From Moorella sp. Hama-1 (lineage in GTDB: Bacteria > Bacillota > DSM-521 > Neomoorellales > Neomoorellaceae), in NCBI RefSeq assembly GCF_023734095.1, contig NZ_AP024620.1, positions 1,174,501 through 1,238,500 of the forward strand: a stretch of DNA of 64,000 nucleotides. The letters are read 5' to 3'. The notes under the pieces are model-generated. The model was not told the DNA's origin. It made no database searches and saw only the letters and a program-made list of their open reading frames with translations. A program made the position numbers and the translations under genes. Below, piece after piece: positions 2,904 to 13,426 of this stretch. Position 1 is the stretch's first letter; each line of letters begins with the position of its first letter.

Positions 2904-2931
2904 GGGGGGGGGATCTTTTTTTACCACCCCG

Positions 2932-2958
2932 GCAGGAACTCCCATTCTGGTGGCGAAT
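2932..2958 (+). promoter_or_regulatory. sigma-H-type promoter, copy 1 (truncated comM leader)
   Basis: GCAGGAACT, an 11-nt gap, then GGCGAAT fits the Firmicute sigma-H consensus (RnAGGAwWW, 11-12 nt, RnnGAAT). The same block precedes the other two comM 5' ends in this window. The call rests on consensus matching and on its conservation in three copies. Confidence 0.55.
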
Positions 2959-2989
2959 AGCAAATATTGGACATAAAACGGGGTCAGAC

Positions 2990-3130
2990 ATGTTAGCCAT
3001 CATAAATTCCATCGTACTCGTTGGCCTGGAAGGGCAAAGTGTACGGGTAGAAGTTGATATTAGTAGCGGACTCCCGGTTTTTGAGATTGTTGGTCAAATT
3101 GTACAGATGAAAAGTCTAAAAAATAGGTAG
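2990..3130 (+). pseudogene. comM: truncated comM 5' end, copy 1
   Basis: Starts MLAIINSIVLVGLEGQSVRV and follows the N-terminus of the intact ComM at 11882 to about residue 34 (EIVG), then diverges into 12 unrelated residues and stops after 46. At DNA level it is almost identical to the copy at 9745 but clearly different at synonymous positions from the intact gene, so it is not a recent copy of the resident comM. It has its own start, leader and sigma-H-type promoter. A hairpin terminator follows three bases after the stop, so a short transcript could still be made. Confidence 0.75.
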
Positions 3131-3168: not shown

Positions 3169-3230
3169 ACTTGTATTTAGGGTATTAAAAGTATATACTA
3201 TGTATAAACAAAGAAGGGGTGAAAATCTTT

Positions 3231-3464
3231 ATGCAACCTCATGTGCAAAAATGGGGCAATAGTTTAGGGATTCGTATCCCTTTAGCGCTGGCCCAAAAAA
3301 CCGGCCTGAGGGAAGGCACACCGGTTGACTTGCTGGTAGATGAGGACGCAATAATTATCCGTCGTAAACATTATAGCCTGGAACAATTGCTGGCACAGGT
3401 TACACCCGGTAATACTCATGGTGAAATAGATACTGGGCCTCAGGTGGGGCGGGAAGTATGGTAA
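3231..3464 (+). CDS. mazE: MazE-like antitoxin (AbrB/SpoVT fold)
   Basis: 77 residues. The N-terminal swapped-hairpin DNA-binding domain shows the family signature VQKWGNSLGIRIP near the start, followed by a short acidic tail that would wrap the toxin. It neutralises MazF and, by family precedent, autorepresses the operon. The ATG at 3231 is preferred: it is about 11 nt after AGAAGGGG and gives the usual MQPHVQKWGN start; an in-frame GTG at 3219 lies inside that ribosome site. The stop overlaps the start of mazF by 7 nt. A possible promoter with TATACTATG-like bases lies about 3192-3202. Confidence 0.85.
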   Translation: MQPHVQKWGNSLGIRIPLALAQKTGLREGTPVDLLVDEDAIIIRRKHYSLEQLLAQVTPGNTHGEIDTGPQVGREVW

Positions 3465-3805
3465 ACGAGATGGAAACCTATATTCCCGAACGTGGTGATA
3501 TCGTCTGGCTCCAGTTCGATCCCCGGGCAGGACATGAGCAAGCCGGCAGGCGACTGGCGCTGGTAGTTTCCCCGCAACTTTATAACGGCAAAGTAGGGCT
3601 AGCCCTTTTTTGCCCTGTTACTACAAAGGCGAAGGGTTATCCCTTTGAAGTAAAGATACCCGCTGGTTTAAAGATTACTGGAGTAATCCTGGCCGACCAG
3701 CTAAAAAGCCTTGACTGGCGGGCAAGGGAGGCGCAATTTGCTTGTAAGGTCCCGGTCGGGGTAGTAGCAGAAGTCCAGGCTAAAGTTCAGGTATTGATTT
3801 CCTAA
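3458..3805 (+). CDS. mazF: MazF/PemK-family mRNA interferase toxin
   Basis: 115 residues, the full length for the family. Visible signatures are GDIVWLQFDPRAGHEQAGRR at the N-terminus (beta-barrel and RNA-binding loop), the VVSP segment, CPVTTKAKGYPFEV and ADQLKSLDWRAR, all close to the E. coli MazF/ChpB type. It is expected to cleave single-stranded mRNA at short motifs and arrest growth when MazE is lost. It is the second gene of an overlapping antitoxin-first operon. The pair sits in the mosaic island between a comM fragment and an IS-split gene, so horizontal acquisition is likely. Confidence 0.88.
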   Translation: MVNEMETYIPERGDIVWLQFDPRAGHEQAGRRLALVVSPQLYNGKVGLALFCPVTTKAKGYPFEVKIPAGLKITGVILADQLKSLDWRAREAQFACKVPVGVVAEVQAKVQVLIS

Positions 3806-5244
3806 AGAGGCCAGGGAAACAACGACGACGGTAACGCCCCTGAAGAATAGAGGATACCCCATGTTTCAACGAAATTCCTCTTTTGGTTTAACCGTCCATT
3901 TTCCCCTGATAAGGGTTCTCCCGCAGCTTCACGTCGACTTGGGCAGTACCACTGTGGGAGGATATTTGTGGGATCTAGGTTCAGGTAAACTTCTCGCTGC
4001 TGATGGTGTGACTAATGCACAGACGAGGCTTGGAGAAGATATCCTGACTCGTATTCATTACGCAGCTACTCCTCAGGGACTAGCAGAACTGCAGCAGTTA
4101 GCAATCATGAGTATAAACAGGATAATTGATTTGGTGACCAAGCAGGCTAACATAGTACCGCAGGATATTACCGCAGGGGTTATCAGTGGTAATACAACTA
4201 TGGTGCATCTATTACTGGGTCTACCAACAGCAAATATCTGCAGGAGTCCTTATGTACCTGTAGTTAACGCTCCTGGGTTTTTCCCGGCAGCAATGATAGG
4301 TCTGGACCTCCACCCGCGAGCTCTCGTTTACCTTTTACCCAGCGTAGGTAGTTATGTAGGAGGAGACATCCTGGCGGGTATTTTAGCGAGTGGTATGCAC
4401 CGGCAAAAAGAGGTCAGCCTTTTGGCAGACATTGGTACCAACGGAGAAATGGTCTTAGGCAATCGAGATTGGTTGGTGGTAGCTGCTGGAGCAGCCGGTC
4501 CAGCCTTGGAAGGTGGGGTAGTAACTTGTGGCATGCGGGCTGAACCTGGCGCAGTTTGTCAGGTTCGTATAGATGCGGATACAGGCAAGGTGACTTACAG
4601 CACTATTGGAGATGTACCCGCGCGCGGTATTTGTGGTTCAGGCCTTGTGGATGCAATTGCTCAAGCGTTACTAGCAGGGATTATTAATCAGCGAGGAGAA
4701 TTACGTGAACCGCTTACTTCTCTAGTGGTTGTGCCGGCAGAGGAAAGCGCTACTGGCCAGCCCATCGAGCTCACTCCCGTAGACATCCAGCGACTGTTGC
4801 GCACCAAAGCTGCAGTTAACGCGATCATAGCTACGCTGCTAGAGAGTGTTGGGTGTACTTTTGCCGATCTTAAGTACTTTTATGCTGCTGGTGCATTTGG
4901 CGATCACCTAGATATTGAATCAGCTATTACCCTTGGGCTATACCCCGACCTGCGGCGGGAAAATATCATACGAGCCACTGCCAAAAATCCAAAACTCATT
5001 GATATACCTTGTAGTTAGACTACCAAAGGAAAAGTTTTTGATGTATGAGCTTTTCTGAGAACGAAAGATTTACTTTTGTCAAGCGGCAAATCAGGCCAAT
5101 TTGGACGATTAAAGACAGTTATCAATAACGTTATTCCAAATATAACCAGGGATAAATTGTCACTTGTAAAATTCCTGAAAAAGGATTCCCTTCTCCTCTC
5201 TTTTATGGCATCATAATACTAGCCATGTTGGGGAGGAAAAGGAA

Positions 5245-6658
5245 ATGATGTATCCTTATCAGCCAAGTTTGTTCGTCGATGACGGCCAGGGCTTGTTCTA
5301 TTGGAAAATTGCCCACAACTATCCCTGGGAAGTATTTAATGATATTGCCCAGGAGTTTAAGGAAATACGTTATAAACAGCTCAAACAACAATCACCCCAA
5401 TCATTACAGTCAAACAGGGACCAGGAAACCTTCTTTGAGGACTTTGAGGAAGGGGAAGTTGACCTGGTCGACCCCTTAAAAGTAGAAGGCCGTAGTCCTC
5501 GGGGGCGAAAGGGTATACCCTTCTGGCCCTTGTTGCGAGCCTTCGTCATGGCTCGTTTAATGCGGGTTGAAGACTCGGTCAAGGATGTTCACTTTTTGTT
5601 ACATACAAACCCTACTTTTGCCCGGGCTCTGGGTTTCGAGGAACTCCCTTCTTACCATACGGTGGCCCGCTTTGATCAGATCATGAGCGAAAATGGGCTC
5701 TGGGAGAAGGCCAGGATCAAATCCGTCAAATTTAATATCGATAACAAGGTCTTTTTCCCCCTCCACGGAAATCGCCGTGGATACTACCCACATCGAAGCC
5801 GAGGCCAAAGCACCACCGAAAGAAAAGAAGGACGACCCTACCTATAAACACAGTGATGATAATGTAGGCATCATGAGAAAATCCAATACTGTAACCTACA
5901 TTGCCCATAAAGGCACCCTTATAGTTGACCCTGTGAGCGAACTGCCATATACCCATTACACAGCTAAAGGCGGGGAGGCTGACAACCTTACCCTTAAACC
6001 GGCATTATTAAAGTTTAAGGCTGAATTTCCCGAAATAGCTGCCGGTGTTACCATTGTAGAAGCCGACGGCATCTTTGATACCGATGATTGCAAACAAGAA
6101 ACCCGTACCGTACTACCTAAAGCACAGTTATATACACCTATCAATCCTCGTCGCCGTAAAAGTACCCCGGTGGAGGGTGTTGCCGGTATCAAAGAAATTG
6201 ATCCCTATGGCCGGCCGGTATGCCTTAGCGGCCACCCCCTGGTGCTTATCGGCAGGGATATTAAAAGAGGAGAATATATCTGGGGTTGCCCCTGCTACCA
6301 TCCCCGTTATGGTGATGAAACCCTGCCCTGCTCCGAGGCCAATCATGTGGCCTGCTGCAACAAAGCCCGATATGGCCGCTGTTACCGTATTAAACGGGAG
6401 ATGACGCCGCAAATAAACTGGGAGAACCCCCAGTTCGCCAGGAGATTTATCAATATATATAACCACCGCTCAGCCATAGAAAGGGTATATAGCAATCTCA
6501 AAGAGGGTTACGGTTATCGTCGGGTACACAAACGTAACCGCATTAATGTTGATGCCCACAGTGACCGTTGCATCCTGGCTATGCATATGCTTGCTTACTT
6601 TGCCTGCCAGGAAGGTAAACGCGAACTGATGCGTAGCTGGAGCAGGATGGCTGCCTGA
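5245..6658 (+). pseudogene. DDE transposase, frameshifted
   Basis: The N-terminal part (5245 to about 5755) has a DUF772-like segment (FWPLLRAFVMARLM, LPSYHTVARFDQIM). The C-terminal part (about 5755-6658) carries the catalytic DDE residues: Asp in AVDTTHIEA, Asp in VEADGIFD, and Glu in YNHRSAIERVYSNLKEG. Cys pairs in CPCYHP/CSEANHVACC suggest a metal site in the insertion domain. The two halves are in different frames, joined at a run of five T and five C (5754-5763). The shift needed is +1, not the -1 slippage used by many IS, so an inactivating indel or a sequence error is more likely than programmed frameshifting. An ATG with GGGGAGGAAAAGG upstream gives a good start. Confidence 0.85.
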
Positions 6659-6659
6659 T

Positions 6660-6719
6660 AAGCTGATAAGCTAATTTTTTTAATCTCAGATATCCTCAAG
6701 GGGATATTATCAGCTTTTT
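6660..6719 (+). terminator. terminator hairpin behind the transposase
   Basis: AAGCTGATAA (6660-6669) pairs perfectly with TTATCAGCTT (6707-6716), with an inner stem ATATCC/GGATAT, and a short T-run follows. It lies two bases after the transposase stop. Confidence 0.65.
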
Positions 6720-7370
6720 AAATCCAATTATTTCCATGCCACCATTTTACCTCTGATGGAGTAAAAAATAGTTAACTTTAATTCGGAATGCAGTTATTTG
6801 GCTGCCTAATATCTACCAGCTAATTTTCTGGGTATTAATTTTGGCAGAGGCTCTACGCTTAGGAAACAGTTCTGGTACAGGTGCCAGCCTGGTCCTTACT
6901 GACATTAATAAGGCACAGGAGTTAGAAGAAATAGCCCGGCGCGTTACGTATCTGGAGATGAACAATAGCCTGCAATTTATGGCCCATTTTACCGCAGGTT
7001 TGTTTTTCCCCCACACCGACCTTGACCTTTTCCCTACTGTTAAAGCTCGCCTAAAACACTAGTAGGTCGTGTCCTGAACCAGTTTTCGCCACAGAAAAAC
7101 TTTATATCGTGTATAAGATAAACTGATTGGACGTACAATCTCTTCTATGTTACATTCTTTTTATAGGTTACACCCTTAATGAAGTAAAGTAAGGAGAAGA
7201 GCAATTATGATAAAAAGTACGCCAACAAGGGTTTTATACAACAGCTGGATGGTACTTACGCTGTCTTAATTCATCCTCTCAACGGATATCTGGAACCCGA
7301 ACAGCTAGAGACCATACGTAGGCTGACCCAACAATACGGAAAGGCAAAGCTCACGGTTACCGAGGCTATC

Positions 7371-8135
7371 ATGATTTACGGGATAAAACCCGAGGACCTT
7401 GACCAGGTGGCCGCAGAGTTAGAAAAGGTGCGCCTACCTTTGGCTGATATCGGTCCGGTGGTGCGAAATGTCAAAGTATGTGCCAGTCAGTATTGTAAGC
7501 ATGTTATCCGCGATGTTACTCCTCTGGCAGCACAAATCAATCAGCGCCTCGCAGGGATGGCGACGCCGAAAAAATTTAAGATGGCCCTGAATGGCTGCCC
7601 CAATTCATGCGTGGAGGCGCAACTAAACGACCTGGGTATCATTGCTGTCCAGGACGGGTACTGGCTTTACCTTGGAGGCAAAGGAGGACGTCAACCCCAA
7701 TTGGGTACTCGGCTGGACATGGTTATCAAGGAAGAGTATCTAGTCGAAACTGTCGAACGGATAGTTAAGGGCTATCTTCAGGTTGCCCAGAACGAGCGAC
7801 TGGCTGAAGTTATTAACCGGATGGGCCTTCTGCCATTCCTTAAGGTAGCACTGGCATGGAGTAGCGAAGGAATCAAGACGTGCATAGGCGCGCGGTATTG
7901 TAAAAACGGTGTTGGTGATGTCCATGCTATGGCGGAGCGCCTAGTGTCCTCCGGCAATTTACAAGGAAATCTCACTATCAGCGGCTGTGGCAATGCATGT
8001 GCTATGGACAAGGAAGCGGATTATAATGTTGTTATTTTGAAAGACAGGTTATGGGTATATAAAAATGGCGATATGGATGTTGCTAATACGGATCAGTTGC
8101 CTGAGTATCTTAAAAGGAAGGGTATTTTAAAATAA
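7371..8135 (+). CDS. nitrite/sulfite reductase-like protein with two Cys-quartet (4Fe-4S/sirohaem) repeats; 5' end frameshifted
   Basis: 254 residues from ATG 7371. Cys37-x4-Cys42 with Cys76-x3-Cys80 (GCPNSC), and Cys171-x5-Cys177 with Cys206-x3-Cys210 (GCGNAC), form two copies of the Cys pattern that binds the coupled 4Fe-4S/sirohaem centre in NiR/SiR proteins; each is followed by a similar strand (GIIAVQDGYWLYLGG, NVVILKDRLWVYKNG). The coding frame extends upstream to about 7188 and encodes the usual ferredoxin-like half-domain (GTYAVLIHPLNGYLEP), but it has no start codon; ATG 7207, well placed after AAGGAGA, is one base out of frame. A one-base deletion just after that ATG would explain this. 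Substrate unknown; the DsrE-like neighbour suggests sulfur chemistry. Confidence 0.72.
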   Translation: MIYGIKPEDLDQVAAELEKVRLPLADIGPVVRNVKVCASQYCKHVIRDVTPLAAQINQRLAGMATPKKFKMALNGCPNSCVEAQLNDLGIIAVQDGYWLYLGGKGGRQPQLGTRLDMVIKEEYLVETVERIVKGYLQVAQNERLAEVINRMGLLPFLKVALAWSSEGIKTCIGARYCKNGVGDVHAMAERLVSSGNLQGNLTISGCGNACAMDKEADYNVVILKDRLWVYKNGDMDVANTDQLPEYLKRKGILK

Positions 8136-8170
8136 CTCCAATCTGAGTTTAACAGAGAAGGGGTGTTGAG

Positions 8171-8563
8171 ATGAATAGGTTGAAAGTCCTTTTCCATGTT
8201 AACGAATCTGGCAGATGGCAAAGGGTTCTCGTGAACATCAGTAATTTTTTAAATGATGTTGGGCAAGGAAATGCTGACATCGAAGTAGTGGCCAACGGTG
8301 AGGCGGTTTCTATTTTCGGGAACAGGTGCCTCCTTGCCGGAGGTGACGGTCAGGGGGCAAGCTGCGGGACAGCTAATGGATCGCTGGTGGAGCAGATGAA
8401 GAAGTTATCGGAGATGGGAGTAAACTTTGTAGCGTGCCGGAACGCTCTCAAAGGCCAGTCTATCGATGAGGACAGCCTCCCCAACTTTCTGACAGTTGTA
8501 CCAGCCGGCATAACAGAAATTGCCAGGAAACAGGCTGAAGGGTATGCCTACATCAAGCCCTGA
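8171..8563 (+). CDS. DsrE/DsrF-like family protein
   Basis: 130 residues, the single-domain size of DsrE-like proteins. It begins LKVLFHVNESGRWQRVLVNISNFLND and contains DIEVVANGEAVSIF, the Rossmann-like layout of the family, with a Cys in NFVACRNALKG at the position where sulfur carriers of the family often have one, and LPNFLTVVPAGITEIARKQAEGYAYIKP at the end. Family members bind and relay persulfide sulfur or have unknown roles. A good ribosome site (AGAAGGGG) precedes ATG 8171. It lies 35 bp after the NiR/SiR-like gene and 41 bp before the TatD-like gene, so the three probably form one operon. Confidence 0.75.
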   Translation: MNRLKVLFHVNESGRWQRVLVNISNFLNDVGQGNADIEVVANGEAVSIFGNRCLLAGGDGQGASCGTANGSLVEQMKKLSEMGVNFVACRNALKGQSIDEDSLPNFLTVVPAGITEIARKQAEGYAYIKP

Positions 8564-8604
8564 TAAGGGCTCGATCCAGCACAATAAGGAGGTAGTAAAA
8601 TCGT

Positions 8605-9366
8605 ATGGAAGGAATTGTAGACTCTCATACACATGTTTCATTACTTCCGTTTGAAGGGCTGGAGAGTATGGCCCTGGCCGGGGTAAGGAAGATTATTGGC
8701 TGCTCCATGTTTTTCGGGGCCACATATGCGGAAACACTCTTTGATCACTTCCACCAGATGTTAACCCTTTCCACGAGCAATGCCGCCCAAAATGGTATCA
8801 AGCTTTTCGTTACAGTTGGCATCCACCCCATGGGAACGCCGGAAGACTGGCCGAGGGTACTCGACGCCCTTCCATCCTATCTTAATATGAGCGATGTTGT
8901 CGGTTTGGGCGAAATCGGCCTGCATGAGGGGAATAAGCGGGAACAAGACGTCCTCCGGGAGCAATTGAAGATAGCCAAGGAATACGGGGTTCCGGTGATC
9001 ATTCATACTCCGCCCCAGCACAGGGTGGAAATTACCGAAAAAACGATTGAAATTGCCGCCGCTGTGGAGATGGAACCCGGAAAAATGATCATCGATCACG
9101 CTAATTTGGACATCATTAACTTAATCGAAGACTTTGGGGCCGTTCCCGGGCTCACCATCCGCCAGGAGGGGCTCACTCCCCATTTATTGCTTAATCACCT
9201 GGAACGCTTCCCACGAGGTGTTCTGAACAGCGATTACAGCAATCTTAAACCCAATGATCCCCTGGGCGTCCCCAGGGCCATACGGTACCTGGAACTGAAC
9301 GGAGTTTCCCCGGAAATCATTGCTCGGATCGCGAGGTACAACGCTGAGGAACTTTTTGGTATCTAA
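8605..9366 (+). CDS. TatD-family metal-dependent hydrolase
   Basis: 253 residues, a complete TIM-barrel amidohydrolase of the TatD type. Metal ligands are visible in order: DSHTH (His8, His10), the Glu in VVGLGEIGLHE, His in VIIHTPP, His in IIDHANLD and Asp in VLNSDYSN. Family members are metal-dependent DNases or phosphodiesterases, but this sequence is divergent from core TatD and its pairing with sulfur/iron-sulfur genes leaves the substrate open. AAGGAGGT (8586-8593) lies 11 nt before the ATG. It is the last gene of the cluster, and hairpins follow. Confidence 0.75.
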   Translation: MEGIVDSHTHVSLLPFEGLESMALAGVRKIIGCSMFFGATYAETLFDHFHQMLTLSTSNAAQNGIKLFVTVGIHPMGTPEDWPRVLDALPSYLNMSDVVGLGEIGLHEGNKREQDVLREQLKIAKEYGVPVIIHTPPQHRVEITEKTIEIAAAVEMEPGKMIIDHANLDIINLIEDFGAVPGLTIRQEGLTPHLLLNHLERFPRGVLNSDYSNLKPNDPLGVPRAIRYLELNGVSPEIIARIARYNAEELFGI

Positions 9367-9432: not shown

Positions 9433-9682
9433 CCTGTTTTTGGGACAGAAGTATCCTCCTACTACTTTAAGGCAGTACTATTTCTGGGCAGTATATGGTG
9501 GCTGTAACAAGATTGCCTAACAGGACTGAGAAAAAGAAATAAGTAAAGCCTTTTTTAAGGTGGGGAAGAAACTCTAGACTTGTTATGGAAGATTATACTA
9601 ACGAACTTTTGCGCCAGGCCAATATTCGTATAAAAGACAAGGACTTTGAAATTATTTATGATTAGTCTTTTTCACCTCCTTA
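9433..9682. other. gene-poor stretch between the TatD-like gene and comM fragment 2
   Basis: No supported gene. A 26-codon frame (9585-9665, MEDYTNELLRQ...) has no convincing ribosome site. A short block around 9486-9504 (AGTATATGGTGG..GTAAC) recurs at 10364-10382, flanking the second comM fragment. Confidence 0.4.
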
Positions 9683-9709
9683 GCAGGAACTCCCGTTCTG
9701 GTGGCGAAT
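9683..9709 (+). promoter_or_regulatory. sigma-H-type promoter, copy 2 (truncated comM leader)
   Basis: GCAGGAACT, an 11-nt gap, and GGCGAAT repeat the block at 2932 almost base for base. The surrounding leader down to the ATG is also shared. Confidence 0.55.
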
Positions 9710-9744
9710 AGCAAATATTGGACATAAAACCCCAGGGGTCAGTC

Positions 9745-9954
9745 ATGTTAGCCATCATAAATTCCATCGTACTCGTTGGCCTGGAAGGGCAAAGTGTACG
9801 GGTAGATGTTGATATTAGTAGCGGACTCCCGGTTTTTGAGATTGTTGATATGATTGTATATACGATATATGCATGTTTGGACGCAAAATTAAACCTGAAA
9901 TCGGTAAGTGAGGGGTCCCCCTGCCTTTGCCTAGGGGCCTTAGAAATTACCTGA
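9745..9954 (+). pseudogene. comM: truncated comM 5' end, copy 2
   Basis: Begins with the same 34-residue ComM N-terminus as copy 1 (one conservative change, Glu to Asp, in RVDVDISSG) and leaves comM homology at the same codon (GAGATTGTTG), after which 35 unrelated residues follow before the stop. The common 3' breakpoint with copy 1 and the shared divergence from the intact gene indicate that both came from one truncated ancestor, not from two independent deletions. Confidence 0.75.
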
Positions 9955-11881: not shown

Positions 11882-13426
11882 ATGTTAGCCATTGTCAATT
11901 CCGTCGTCCTTGTCGGTCTGGAGGGCCAGAGTGTACGGGTAGAGGTGGATATTAGCAATGGTTTGCCTGTTTGTGATATCGTCGGCCTCCCGGACCCCTC
12001 TGTCCGCGAGGCCCGGGAGCGGGTGCGGGCGGCCATTAAAAATTCGGGTTTCGAGTTCCCCCTGCGCCGCATTATTGTCAACCTGGCCCCCGGTGATATT
12101 AAAAAAGAAGGCCCCATCTACGACCTGCCCATTGCCCTGGGCATCCTGATGGCGGCGGAAGAGATTGGCAACGGGCCGGAAGGAACAATTTACGCCGCCG
12201 GGGAGCTTTCCCTGGAGGGAAGCCTCAGGCCCGTTCCCGGGGTTCTACCCATGGCCCTGGCCTTACAGGAAATCCAGCCCGGCGCCACCTTTATTGTCCC
12301 GGCGGCCAACGCTAACGAGGCTGCCCTGGCCACCCGGCTAAAGGTACTGGCTGCCGAAAGCCTGGGCCAGGTAGTTGCTTACTGGCGTGGTGAGGGTTCC
12401 CTGCCAGAAGTCAAGGAAACAGAAGGCCAGGGCCCATCACCGGCCACTCCAGGGGTGAACCTGGCCGACATCAAGGGCCAGGCAGCCGCCAAACGGGGAC
12501 TGGAGATAGCTGCTGCCGGGGGTCATAATATCCTTTTGATTGGTAGCCCTGGTGCGGGTAAAACCATGCTCGCCCGGGCTTTACCGGCCATTTTGCCTTC
12601 GCTGACCTACGAGGAAGCCCTGACTGTGACCAAGATTTACAGCGCCGCCGGGTTGCTATCACCCGGCCAGGGATTAGTTACGGAACGCCCCTTCCGCACT
12701 CCCCACCATACGGCCTCTTCTGCCAGTATCATCGGCGGCGGCCGGGTGCCGAAACCGGGGGAAGTAAGCCTGGCCACCCACGGCGTTCTTTTTCTGGATG
12801 AGATAGCTGAATACCGCCGTGACGTCCTGGAGGCACTGCGCCAGCCCCTGGAAGATCGCGTCGTCACCGTCTCCCGGGTGGCGGCGGCTATTACCTATCC
12901 CGCGGATTTTCTTTTGATCGGGAGCATGAATCCCTGTCCGTGCGGGTACTACGGTGACCCAGTCAAGGAATGCCTGTGTACCCCGCACCAGGTCGCCCAG
13001 TACCGCAAGAGGCTCTCCGGCCCCTTGCTGGATCGCATTGACCTGCACCTGGAAGTCCCCCGCCTGACCTATGGGGAAGTCGAGGACAGCACCAGGCCGG
13101 AGGATTCACTCACTGTAGGGGAACGGGTCCGGGCTGCCCGGGAAAGGCAGTTGGTGCGGTTCAGGGGTACCGGAGTTACCTGCAATGCAGCCATGTCCGC
13201 CCGGCAGGTTCATCAGTACTGCCGCCCAGCTCCTCAGGCGCGTAGTCTTTTGCGGGAAGCGTTTAACAAGCTGAGTCTTTCCATGCGGGCCCATGACCGC
13301 CTGCTGAAGGTAGCCCGGACCATCGCCGACCTGGAAGGAAGCGAGGAGATTACTGCCGCCCATCTGGCCGAAGCTATCCAGTACCGCAGCCTGGATTGGG
13401 GTGAGGCCAAGGAGGCCATGGGGTAA
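11882..13426 (+). CDS. comM: ComM/YifB family Mg-chelatase-like AAA+ ATPase
   Basis: 514 residues, full length. A Lon-substrate-like N-terminal domain (about 1-170) is followed by a Mg-chelatase AAA+ module with Walker A GSPGAGKT (about residue 222), Walker B VLFLDEIAEY, the SMNPCPCGYYGD Cys-rich loop and a C-terminal lid with SMRAHDRLLKVARTIADLEG. In naturally competent bacteria ComM is a hexameric helicase driving branch migration of incoming DNA; dprA, which loads RecA on the same DNA, lies 2.2 kb downstream. The first 34 codons exist twice more upstream as truncated copies. The next gene starts 105 bp later. Confidence 0.92.
   Translation: MLAIVNSVVLVGLEGQSVRVEVDISNGLPVCDIVGLPDPSVREARERVRAAIKNSGFEFPLRRIIVNLAPGDIKKEGPIYDLPIALGILMAAEEIGNGPEGTIYAAGELSLEGSLRPVPGVLPMALALQEIQPGATFIVPAANANEAALATRLKVLAAESLGQVVAYWRGEGSLPEVKETEGQGPSPATPGVNLADIKGQAAAKRGLEIAAAGGHNILLIGSPGAGKTMLARALPAILPSLTYEEALTVTKIYSAAGLLSPGQGLVTERPFRTPHHTASSASIIGGGRVPKPGEVSLATHGVLFLDEIAEYRRDVLEALRQPLEDRVVTVSRVAAAITYPADFLLIGSMNPCPCGYYGDPVKECLCTPHQVAQYRKRLSGPLLDRIDLHLEVPRLTYGEVEDSTRPEDSLTVGERVRAARERQLVRFRGTGVTCNAAMSARQVHQYCRPAPQARSLLREAFNKLSLSMRAHDRLLKVARTIADLEGSEEITAAHLAEAIQYRSLDWGEAKEAMG

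Follow-up and report, generated by a model that had tools for sequence, protein, structure and literature searches.

On balance we favour the view that SiR2C, a NIR/SIR-family protein with two cysteine quartets, forms a mobile accessory cassette of anaerobic sirohaem-dependent sulfite reduction together with a DsrE-like protein and a TatD-like protein, joined in several lineages by a RACo-like ATPase. This reading is drawn from sequence comparison and gene order. The genes were studied in a 64-kb stretch of DNA (the window) from a closed 3.32-Mb genome (G000) of a genus that includes Moorella stamsii and M. sulfitireducens. A first-pass annotation had proposed an undescribed sulfur or redox system here, a proposal that gains support since the second cysteine quartet is invariant and the genes recur together. 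No published description of the SiR2C gene set was found in the part of the literature that was covered.

The gene set in the window

The SiR2C gene lies at 7207-8135 on the forward strand and its frame is broken at codon 2 in this genome. The frame stays open over 7188-8135 without a start codon: no ATG, GTG or TTG precedes 7371, where the first in-frame ATG lies. The true start is the ATG at 7207, and the protein is 309 amino acids long in relatives, where its N-terminus reads MIKKYANKGF. Compared with the Moorella orthologues (L036, L040, L041, L042 and L071), a single T has been lost within 7207-7217 (forward strand): the codon 2 region is ATGATAAAAAG in the window and ATGATTAAAAAG in the orthologues, so that the ATG at 7207 is out of frame. 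The gene that had been annotated from 7188 is thus present, but 7188 marks only the opening of the frame. The window copy is either a dead gene or the product of a sequencing error.

Downstream on the same strand are the DsrE-like gene (8171-8563) and the TatD-like gene (8605-9366), as the first-pass annotation had stated; both frames are intact and have Pfam matches. Upstream, also on the forward strand, a RACo-like ATPase gene is split into a middle fragment (3861-5018, residues 103-451 of 518, the N-terminal part being gone) and a C-terminal fragment (6841-7062, residues 450-518). The insertion that separates them spans about 4974-6852 and carries a transposase in two overlapping frames (5245-6658, forward strand). 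The RACo-like gene of the window is, by its sequence, a pseudogene, and the cassette as a whole is in decay in this genome and probably inactive.

Domain architecture and cysteine quartets of SiR2C

In the accepted view, sulfite reductases go back to a single NIR/SIR unit that was duplicated and of whose cysteine quartets one was retained. Pfam places SiR2C in this superfamily, with NIR_SIR_ferr (Pfam: PF03460, 47.0 bits, cut-off 24) and NIR_SIR (Pfam: PF01077, 103.2 bits, cut-off 27) annotated within the first ~220 residues, and recognises no domain in the last ~100 residues. A match to the DGC domain (Pfam: PF08859) scored below its cut-off and was set aside. An hhalign comparison of the profile of the C-terminal 101 amino acids gave a match to the first unit of SiR2C itself (E 2.4e-8, probability 95) and one to further NIR_SIR proteins (E 3.7e-6). 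The C-terminal ~100 amino acids are thus a genuine second NIR_SIR unit, though a truncated one. As this unit has no ferredoxin-like half-domain of its own, SiR2C consists of about 1.5 repeats and not of two.

The first quartet, C-x4-C...C-x3-C, is encoded at 7479-7610 on the forward strand (codons 7479, 7494, 7596 and 7608), and the KFK sulfite-binding pair precedes its third cysteine. The second quartet, C-x5-C...C-x3-C, lies in the truncated unit at 7881-8000 on the same strand (codons 7881, 7899, 7986 and 7998); this unit has no KFK pair in the aligned orthologues. The C-x4-C motif of the first cluster is non-canonical, and the C-x5-C motif of the second is canonical. All eight cysteines are invariant in 12 of 12 aligned orthologues (73-97% identity), so the conservation of the second quartet, on which the first-pass annotation had made its claim depend, is borne out. 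Its description of two repeats that each keep a quartet holds for the quartets, but just a part of the second repeat is present. In about 35 further NIR/SIR relatives, including AsrC, DsrA/B, DUF1858-type fusions and ~240-amino-acid proteins, the chain stops short of the second quartet, and each has a single quartet of this kind.

Pairwise dN/dS ratios (Nei-Gojobori, pairs with measurable dS) are 0.02-0.30 for the first part of SiR2C and 0.06-0.27 for its tail, and both units are under purifying selection. Together with the profile matches and the invariant cysteines, the selection on the tail makes the second quartet more than a coincidence. In the phylogenetic tree SiR2C is a monophyletic clade (95/96) on a long stem, sister to the ~240-amino-acid group, a placement that is possibly a long-branch effect. 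A viral scan gave no hits.

The sulfite ligands of the F420-dependent sulfite reductase MjFsr are Arg355, Arg423, Lys460 and Lys462 (PMC10229431). In a phmmer alignment to the Fsr structures, equivalents of Arg423, Lys460 and Lys462 are present in every aligned SiR2C orthologue, and the position of Arg355 is occupied by Leu or Val, so that three of the four sulfite-binding residues are retained. The retained residues, the selection on both units and the monophyly of the clade speak for a role in sulfite reduction as part of an accessory cassette; the lost Arg355 equivalent and the C-x4-C in place of C-x5-C in the first motif speak against it. So does the structure prediction, as the model that AlphaFold2 built from a five-sequence SiR2C alignment is meaningless (pLDDT 35.5, pTM 0.25).

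The same residues allow another reading, in which SiR2C would be a minimal assimilatory sulfite reductase whose N-terminal unit supplies the anion-binding Arg/Lys and whose C-terminal C-x5-C...C-x3-C is the catalytic cluster, comparable to the halves of CysI. We regard this as possible, if rather unlikely: the order of anion residues first and canonical cluster second is that of the two-half enzymes, with C-x5-C in the second unit and KFK and the Arg423 equivalent retained, but both the second ferredoxin-like half-domain and the Arg355 equivalent are missing, and SiR2C genomes possess other sulfite reductases too.

Comparison with known NIR/SIR proteins

Group I of the Dsr-LP proteins, which includes the Desulfovibrio alSir (PMC3448663), likewise comprises small single-unit NIR/SIR proteins without a ferredoxin insert. 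Of the features of this group, SiR2C has the three or four sulfite Arg/Lys and departs from the absence of a further cluster site; sirohaem binding, a further feature of the group, is predicted for SiR2C. Group I members that have no first sulfite residue were named Ia (Susanti & Mukhopadhyay 2012, PMC3448663), and SiR2C shares the Ia pattern of cluster cysteines plus three of the four sulfite Arg/Lys with the first one missing. It differs from group I in adding a truncated second NIR_SIR unit with a cysteine quartet of its own, and in the C-x4-C of its first cluster compared with C-x5-C-xn-C-x3-C in group I, a C-x5-C being found in the second SiR2C unit. A group II, predicted and at that time unseen, would carry a ferredoxin-type peripheral cluster (PMC3448663), whereas in SiR2C the cluster site was added through partial duplication.

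AsrC (TIGR02912) belongs to the same superfamily, is of similar length and is an operon neighbour of SiR2C in one genus. However, AsrC has an inserted two-cluster ferredoxin, while SiR2C has no Fer4 domain and, at 60.6 bits, falls short of the TIGR02912 cut-off of 324.1. Its scores against the DsrA and DsrB models (TIGR02064 and TIGR02066) are 48.1 and 24.7 bits, below the respective cut-offs of 392.9 and 341.5. By sequence, the closest solved relatives are Fsr structures (7np8, 7npa and 9tn7; E 2.8e-24). The C-terminal unit of Fsr has, like SiR2C, the cluster and KFK; unlike SiR2C, Fsr has fused F420H2 oxidase and ferredoxin modules and all four sulfite residues. The two-repeat sulfite and nitrite reductases (CysI, NirA and plant SiR) consist of two complete repeats, whereas the second unit of SiR2C is truncated and has no NIR_SIR_ferr.

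Occurrence of the gene set

Besides the window genome, 13 genomes have an intact SiR2C (G001, G002, G004, G010, G014, G023, G129, G139, G219, G353, G404, G405 and Desulfovirgula thermocuniculi); the carriers are thermophilic bacteria. SiR2C, DsrE and TatD occur together at nine intact loci, namely those of G001, G004, G010, G129, G219, G353, G404, G405 and Desulfovirgula. SiR2C is found with DsrE in G002, G014 and G139, with an additional TatD remnant in G014, and with TatD and a DsrE remnant in G023. The co-occurrence of the three genes outside the window, raised in the first-pass annotation as a point to check, is hence found at these nine loci, with pairs elsewhere. DsrE-TatD pairs without SiR2C are present in G017, G068, G106, G140, G288 and G311. 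At least six genomes with such a pair and no SiR2C (those of L161, L162, L163, L165, L166 and L167) all hold other sulfite-reductase-family genes.

In a draw of 398 genomes of the phylum, the TatD-like gene was found in 8 of the 10 SiR2C genomes (Fisher p 2e-11, relatedness ignored). Its overlap with AsrC in the same draw is weak (4 of 15 genomes, p 0.03, relatedness ignored), which tells against a cassette serving sulfite reduction.

Mobility of the cassette

SiR2C is 94% identical between different classes (G000 versus G023 and G129), and the synonymous divergence between G010 and G129 is only 0.17-0.22. That the set is spread over several classes, with identities of up to 94%, implies horizontal transfer. 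In the window, direct repeats of ~190 bp (2917-3103 and 9668-9858, neither assigned to a strand) bracket the block that starts with a MazEF-like pair and ends with the TatD gene. The right copy is 91.6% identical to the left copy; both derive from the 5' end of a ChlI/YifB-type gene and are similar to that part of the intact ChlI/YifB-type gene located at 11882-13426. G010 (L040, 12950-13123) and M. sulfitireducens (L036, 521-778) likewise have similar partial copies next to the module. The repeats would fit an insertion of the island near the ChlI/YifB-type gene.

The MazE/PemK-type toxin-antitoxin pair (3219-3805) lies within the bracketed block, immediately 5' of the RACo-like fragment. Upstream of the island, at 1437-2903, this anaerobe's genome has a COX1-family gene (heme-copper oxidase subunit I type).

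The bracketing repeats and the movement of the block between lineages are also what would be expected of unrelated small genes that are chance neighbours on one mobile island. This was already disfavoured and is hardly plausible, because the set recurs with varied orders and flanks across many genera and the co-occurrence of SiR2C with the TatD-like gene is far above expectation.

Sulfite and sirohaem context

The first-pass annotation had seen no sirohaem or dissimilatory reductase genes nearby. This is correct for the window, in whose 64 kb no homologue of sirohaem, asr or apr genes is present, but in relatives such genes are direct neighbours of the set. Four genomes of one genus (G219, G353, G404 and G405) have the order asrA-asrB-asrC-SiR2C-DsrE-TatD-DUF2250, followed by hemA, a precorrin-2-dehydrogenase-like (sirC-like) gene, hemC, cobA/hemD, hemB and hemL; on the other flank are a divergent LysR gene and cysN, cysD and aprA. 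The set thus lies within the gene cluster for sulfate assimilation in these genomes. The genes asrA, asrB, asrC, cysD, aprA, hemA and cobA score above the curated NCBIfam cut-offs, and cysN above that of TIGR02034, whereas hemB, hemC and hemL were named from sequence inspection and position only. At L072 and L073 the neighbours are a gamma-lyase-type gene and CysN/CysD. This arrangement argues for an accessory cassette of sulfite reduction, but an intact SiR2C among asr and sirohaem genes is known only from this genus. The DUF2250 gene directly after the TatD-like gene recurs (L072, 7553-7879; L163, 10307-10633; L164, 10342-10668) and could be a local regulator.

Further support comes from remnants. 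SiR2C remnants follow asrC in G350, G414 and G417; G350 has sirohaem genes and asrABC, then the SiR2C remnant and then intact DsrE, TatD and DUF2250 genes, and G414 and G417 have asrABC and the remnants. In G408 asrABC is lost and SiR2C contains stop codons. SiR2C is the part of the cassette lost most often, and it has been lost repeatedly while DsrE/TatD or asrABC remain. At L115, L116, L118 and L164 it is decayed next to intact asrABC or DsrE/TatD genes. Several genomes keep asrABC and have no intact SiR2C, so that SiR2C is not required for Asr, a point against tying the cassette to this system.

All 13 of the carriers tested by PF01077 search (the count being made in carriers alone) hold another NIR_SIR protein, and 11 of the 13 have an adjacent pair of NIR_SIR frames of 350-500 amino acids, the size and arrangement of dsrAB. 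In the PH28_bin88 genome the gene order is LysR-YeiH-SiR2C-DsrE-TatD-RACo, with YeiH a Cons_hypoth698 (YeiH-family) gene. In Salmonella, YeiE is a sulfite sensor and YeiH leads to sulfite resistance (PMC12880088). The other NIR_SIR proteins of the carriers and the gene order in PH28_bin88 both favour the accessory cassette.

The position of SiR2C between asrC and the sirohaem synthesis genes, and the other sulfite reductases of the carriers, would also suit a non-catalytic protein that delivers or repairs the sirohaem or Fe-S cofactor of AsrC or DsrAB. We consider this unlikely, as the retained substrate-binding Arg/Lys would be needless in a carrier and genomes in which SiR2C is decayed or never found still have asrABC.

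Partner proteins

The DsrE-like protein has a Pfam DsrE domain and MTH1491 (1l1s) as its closest solved structure; the Cys of its CRNAL motif is conserved across the aligned orthologues. The TatD-like metal hydrolase is a TatD-type protein by its TatD_DNase domain (67 bits, cut-off 27), closest to AF_1765 (3guw), and its candidate ligands HxH, E, H, H and D are present, by inspection, in all nine aligned sequences. Both solved structures were deposited without an assigned function. No described pairing of an MTH1491-type DsrE or AF_1765-type TatD-like protein with SiR2C was found in the literature covered.

An intact RACo-like partner is present in G001, G004, G010, G014, G017 and G129, every time in the same cluster as DsrE, and is absent at the Asr-linked loci. 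It shares the linker, middle and C-terminal ASKHA domains of RACo/AcsV (3zyy and 4c1n), but does not have the ~120 N-terminal residues that include the [2Fe-2S] domain: the alignment with 3zyy begins at residue 123 and the intact copies have no Fer2 match. Its context is also sulfite and not corrinoid metabolism. The gene has a 51% relative in G023, where it stands beside LysR, YeiH-family and AprA-like genes.

From the position of the three-gene set after a RACo-like gene, the first-pass annotation had suspected a link to corrinoid or methyl chemistry. A corrinoid/methyl-transfer system in which RACo genuinely activates a corrinoid protein would explain why the RACo-like gene adjoins the set in six genomes and, in broken form, in G000. 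We judge it very unlikely, and the suggested link finds no support beyond the RACo-like gene: the RACo subtype has no [2Fe-2S] domain, is a pseudogene in the window and is missing from the Asr-linked loci, its relative in G023 keeps the company just described, and neither a corrinoid protein nor a methyltransferase was seen among the module's neighbours. The placement among asrABC and sirohaem genes and the other sulfite reductases of the carriers point instead to sirohaem-dependent sulfite reduction.

Proposed role

In the accessory cassette that we favour, the N-terminal unit of SiR2C would bind a sirohaem-[4Fe-4S] centre and the oxyanion, and the truncated second unit would hold a further [4Fe-4S] cluster that feeds electrons in, standing in for the ferredoxin inserts of AsrC and Fsr. 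The DsrE-like protein may receive or relay the sulfur product, and the RACo-like ATPase, having no [2Fe-2S] domain of its own, may help to maintain the reduced centre. From its residues and neighbours, SiR2C itself is possibly a catalyst, an accessory reductase or a cofactor-handling protein.

ATP-driven reductive activation is known for corrinoid proteins. An analogous activation by the RACo-type ATPase without ferredoxin domain, keeping a sirohaem-[4Fe-4S] or cobalt-isobacteriochlorin centre on SiR2C in its low-potential active state, is conceivable, and we offer it as an improbable speculation.

With its about 1.5 units and both quartets retained, SiR2C shows an arrangement that is new to the NIR/SIR family. 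The cassette would moreover give three poorly understood families, the MTH1491-type DsrE, the AF_1765-type TatD-like and the RACo-like proteins without [2Fe-2S] domain, a shared and testable setting in the sulfite metabolism of thermophilic anaerobes.
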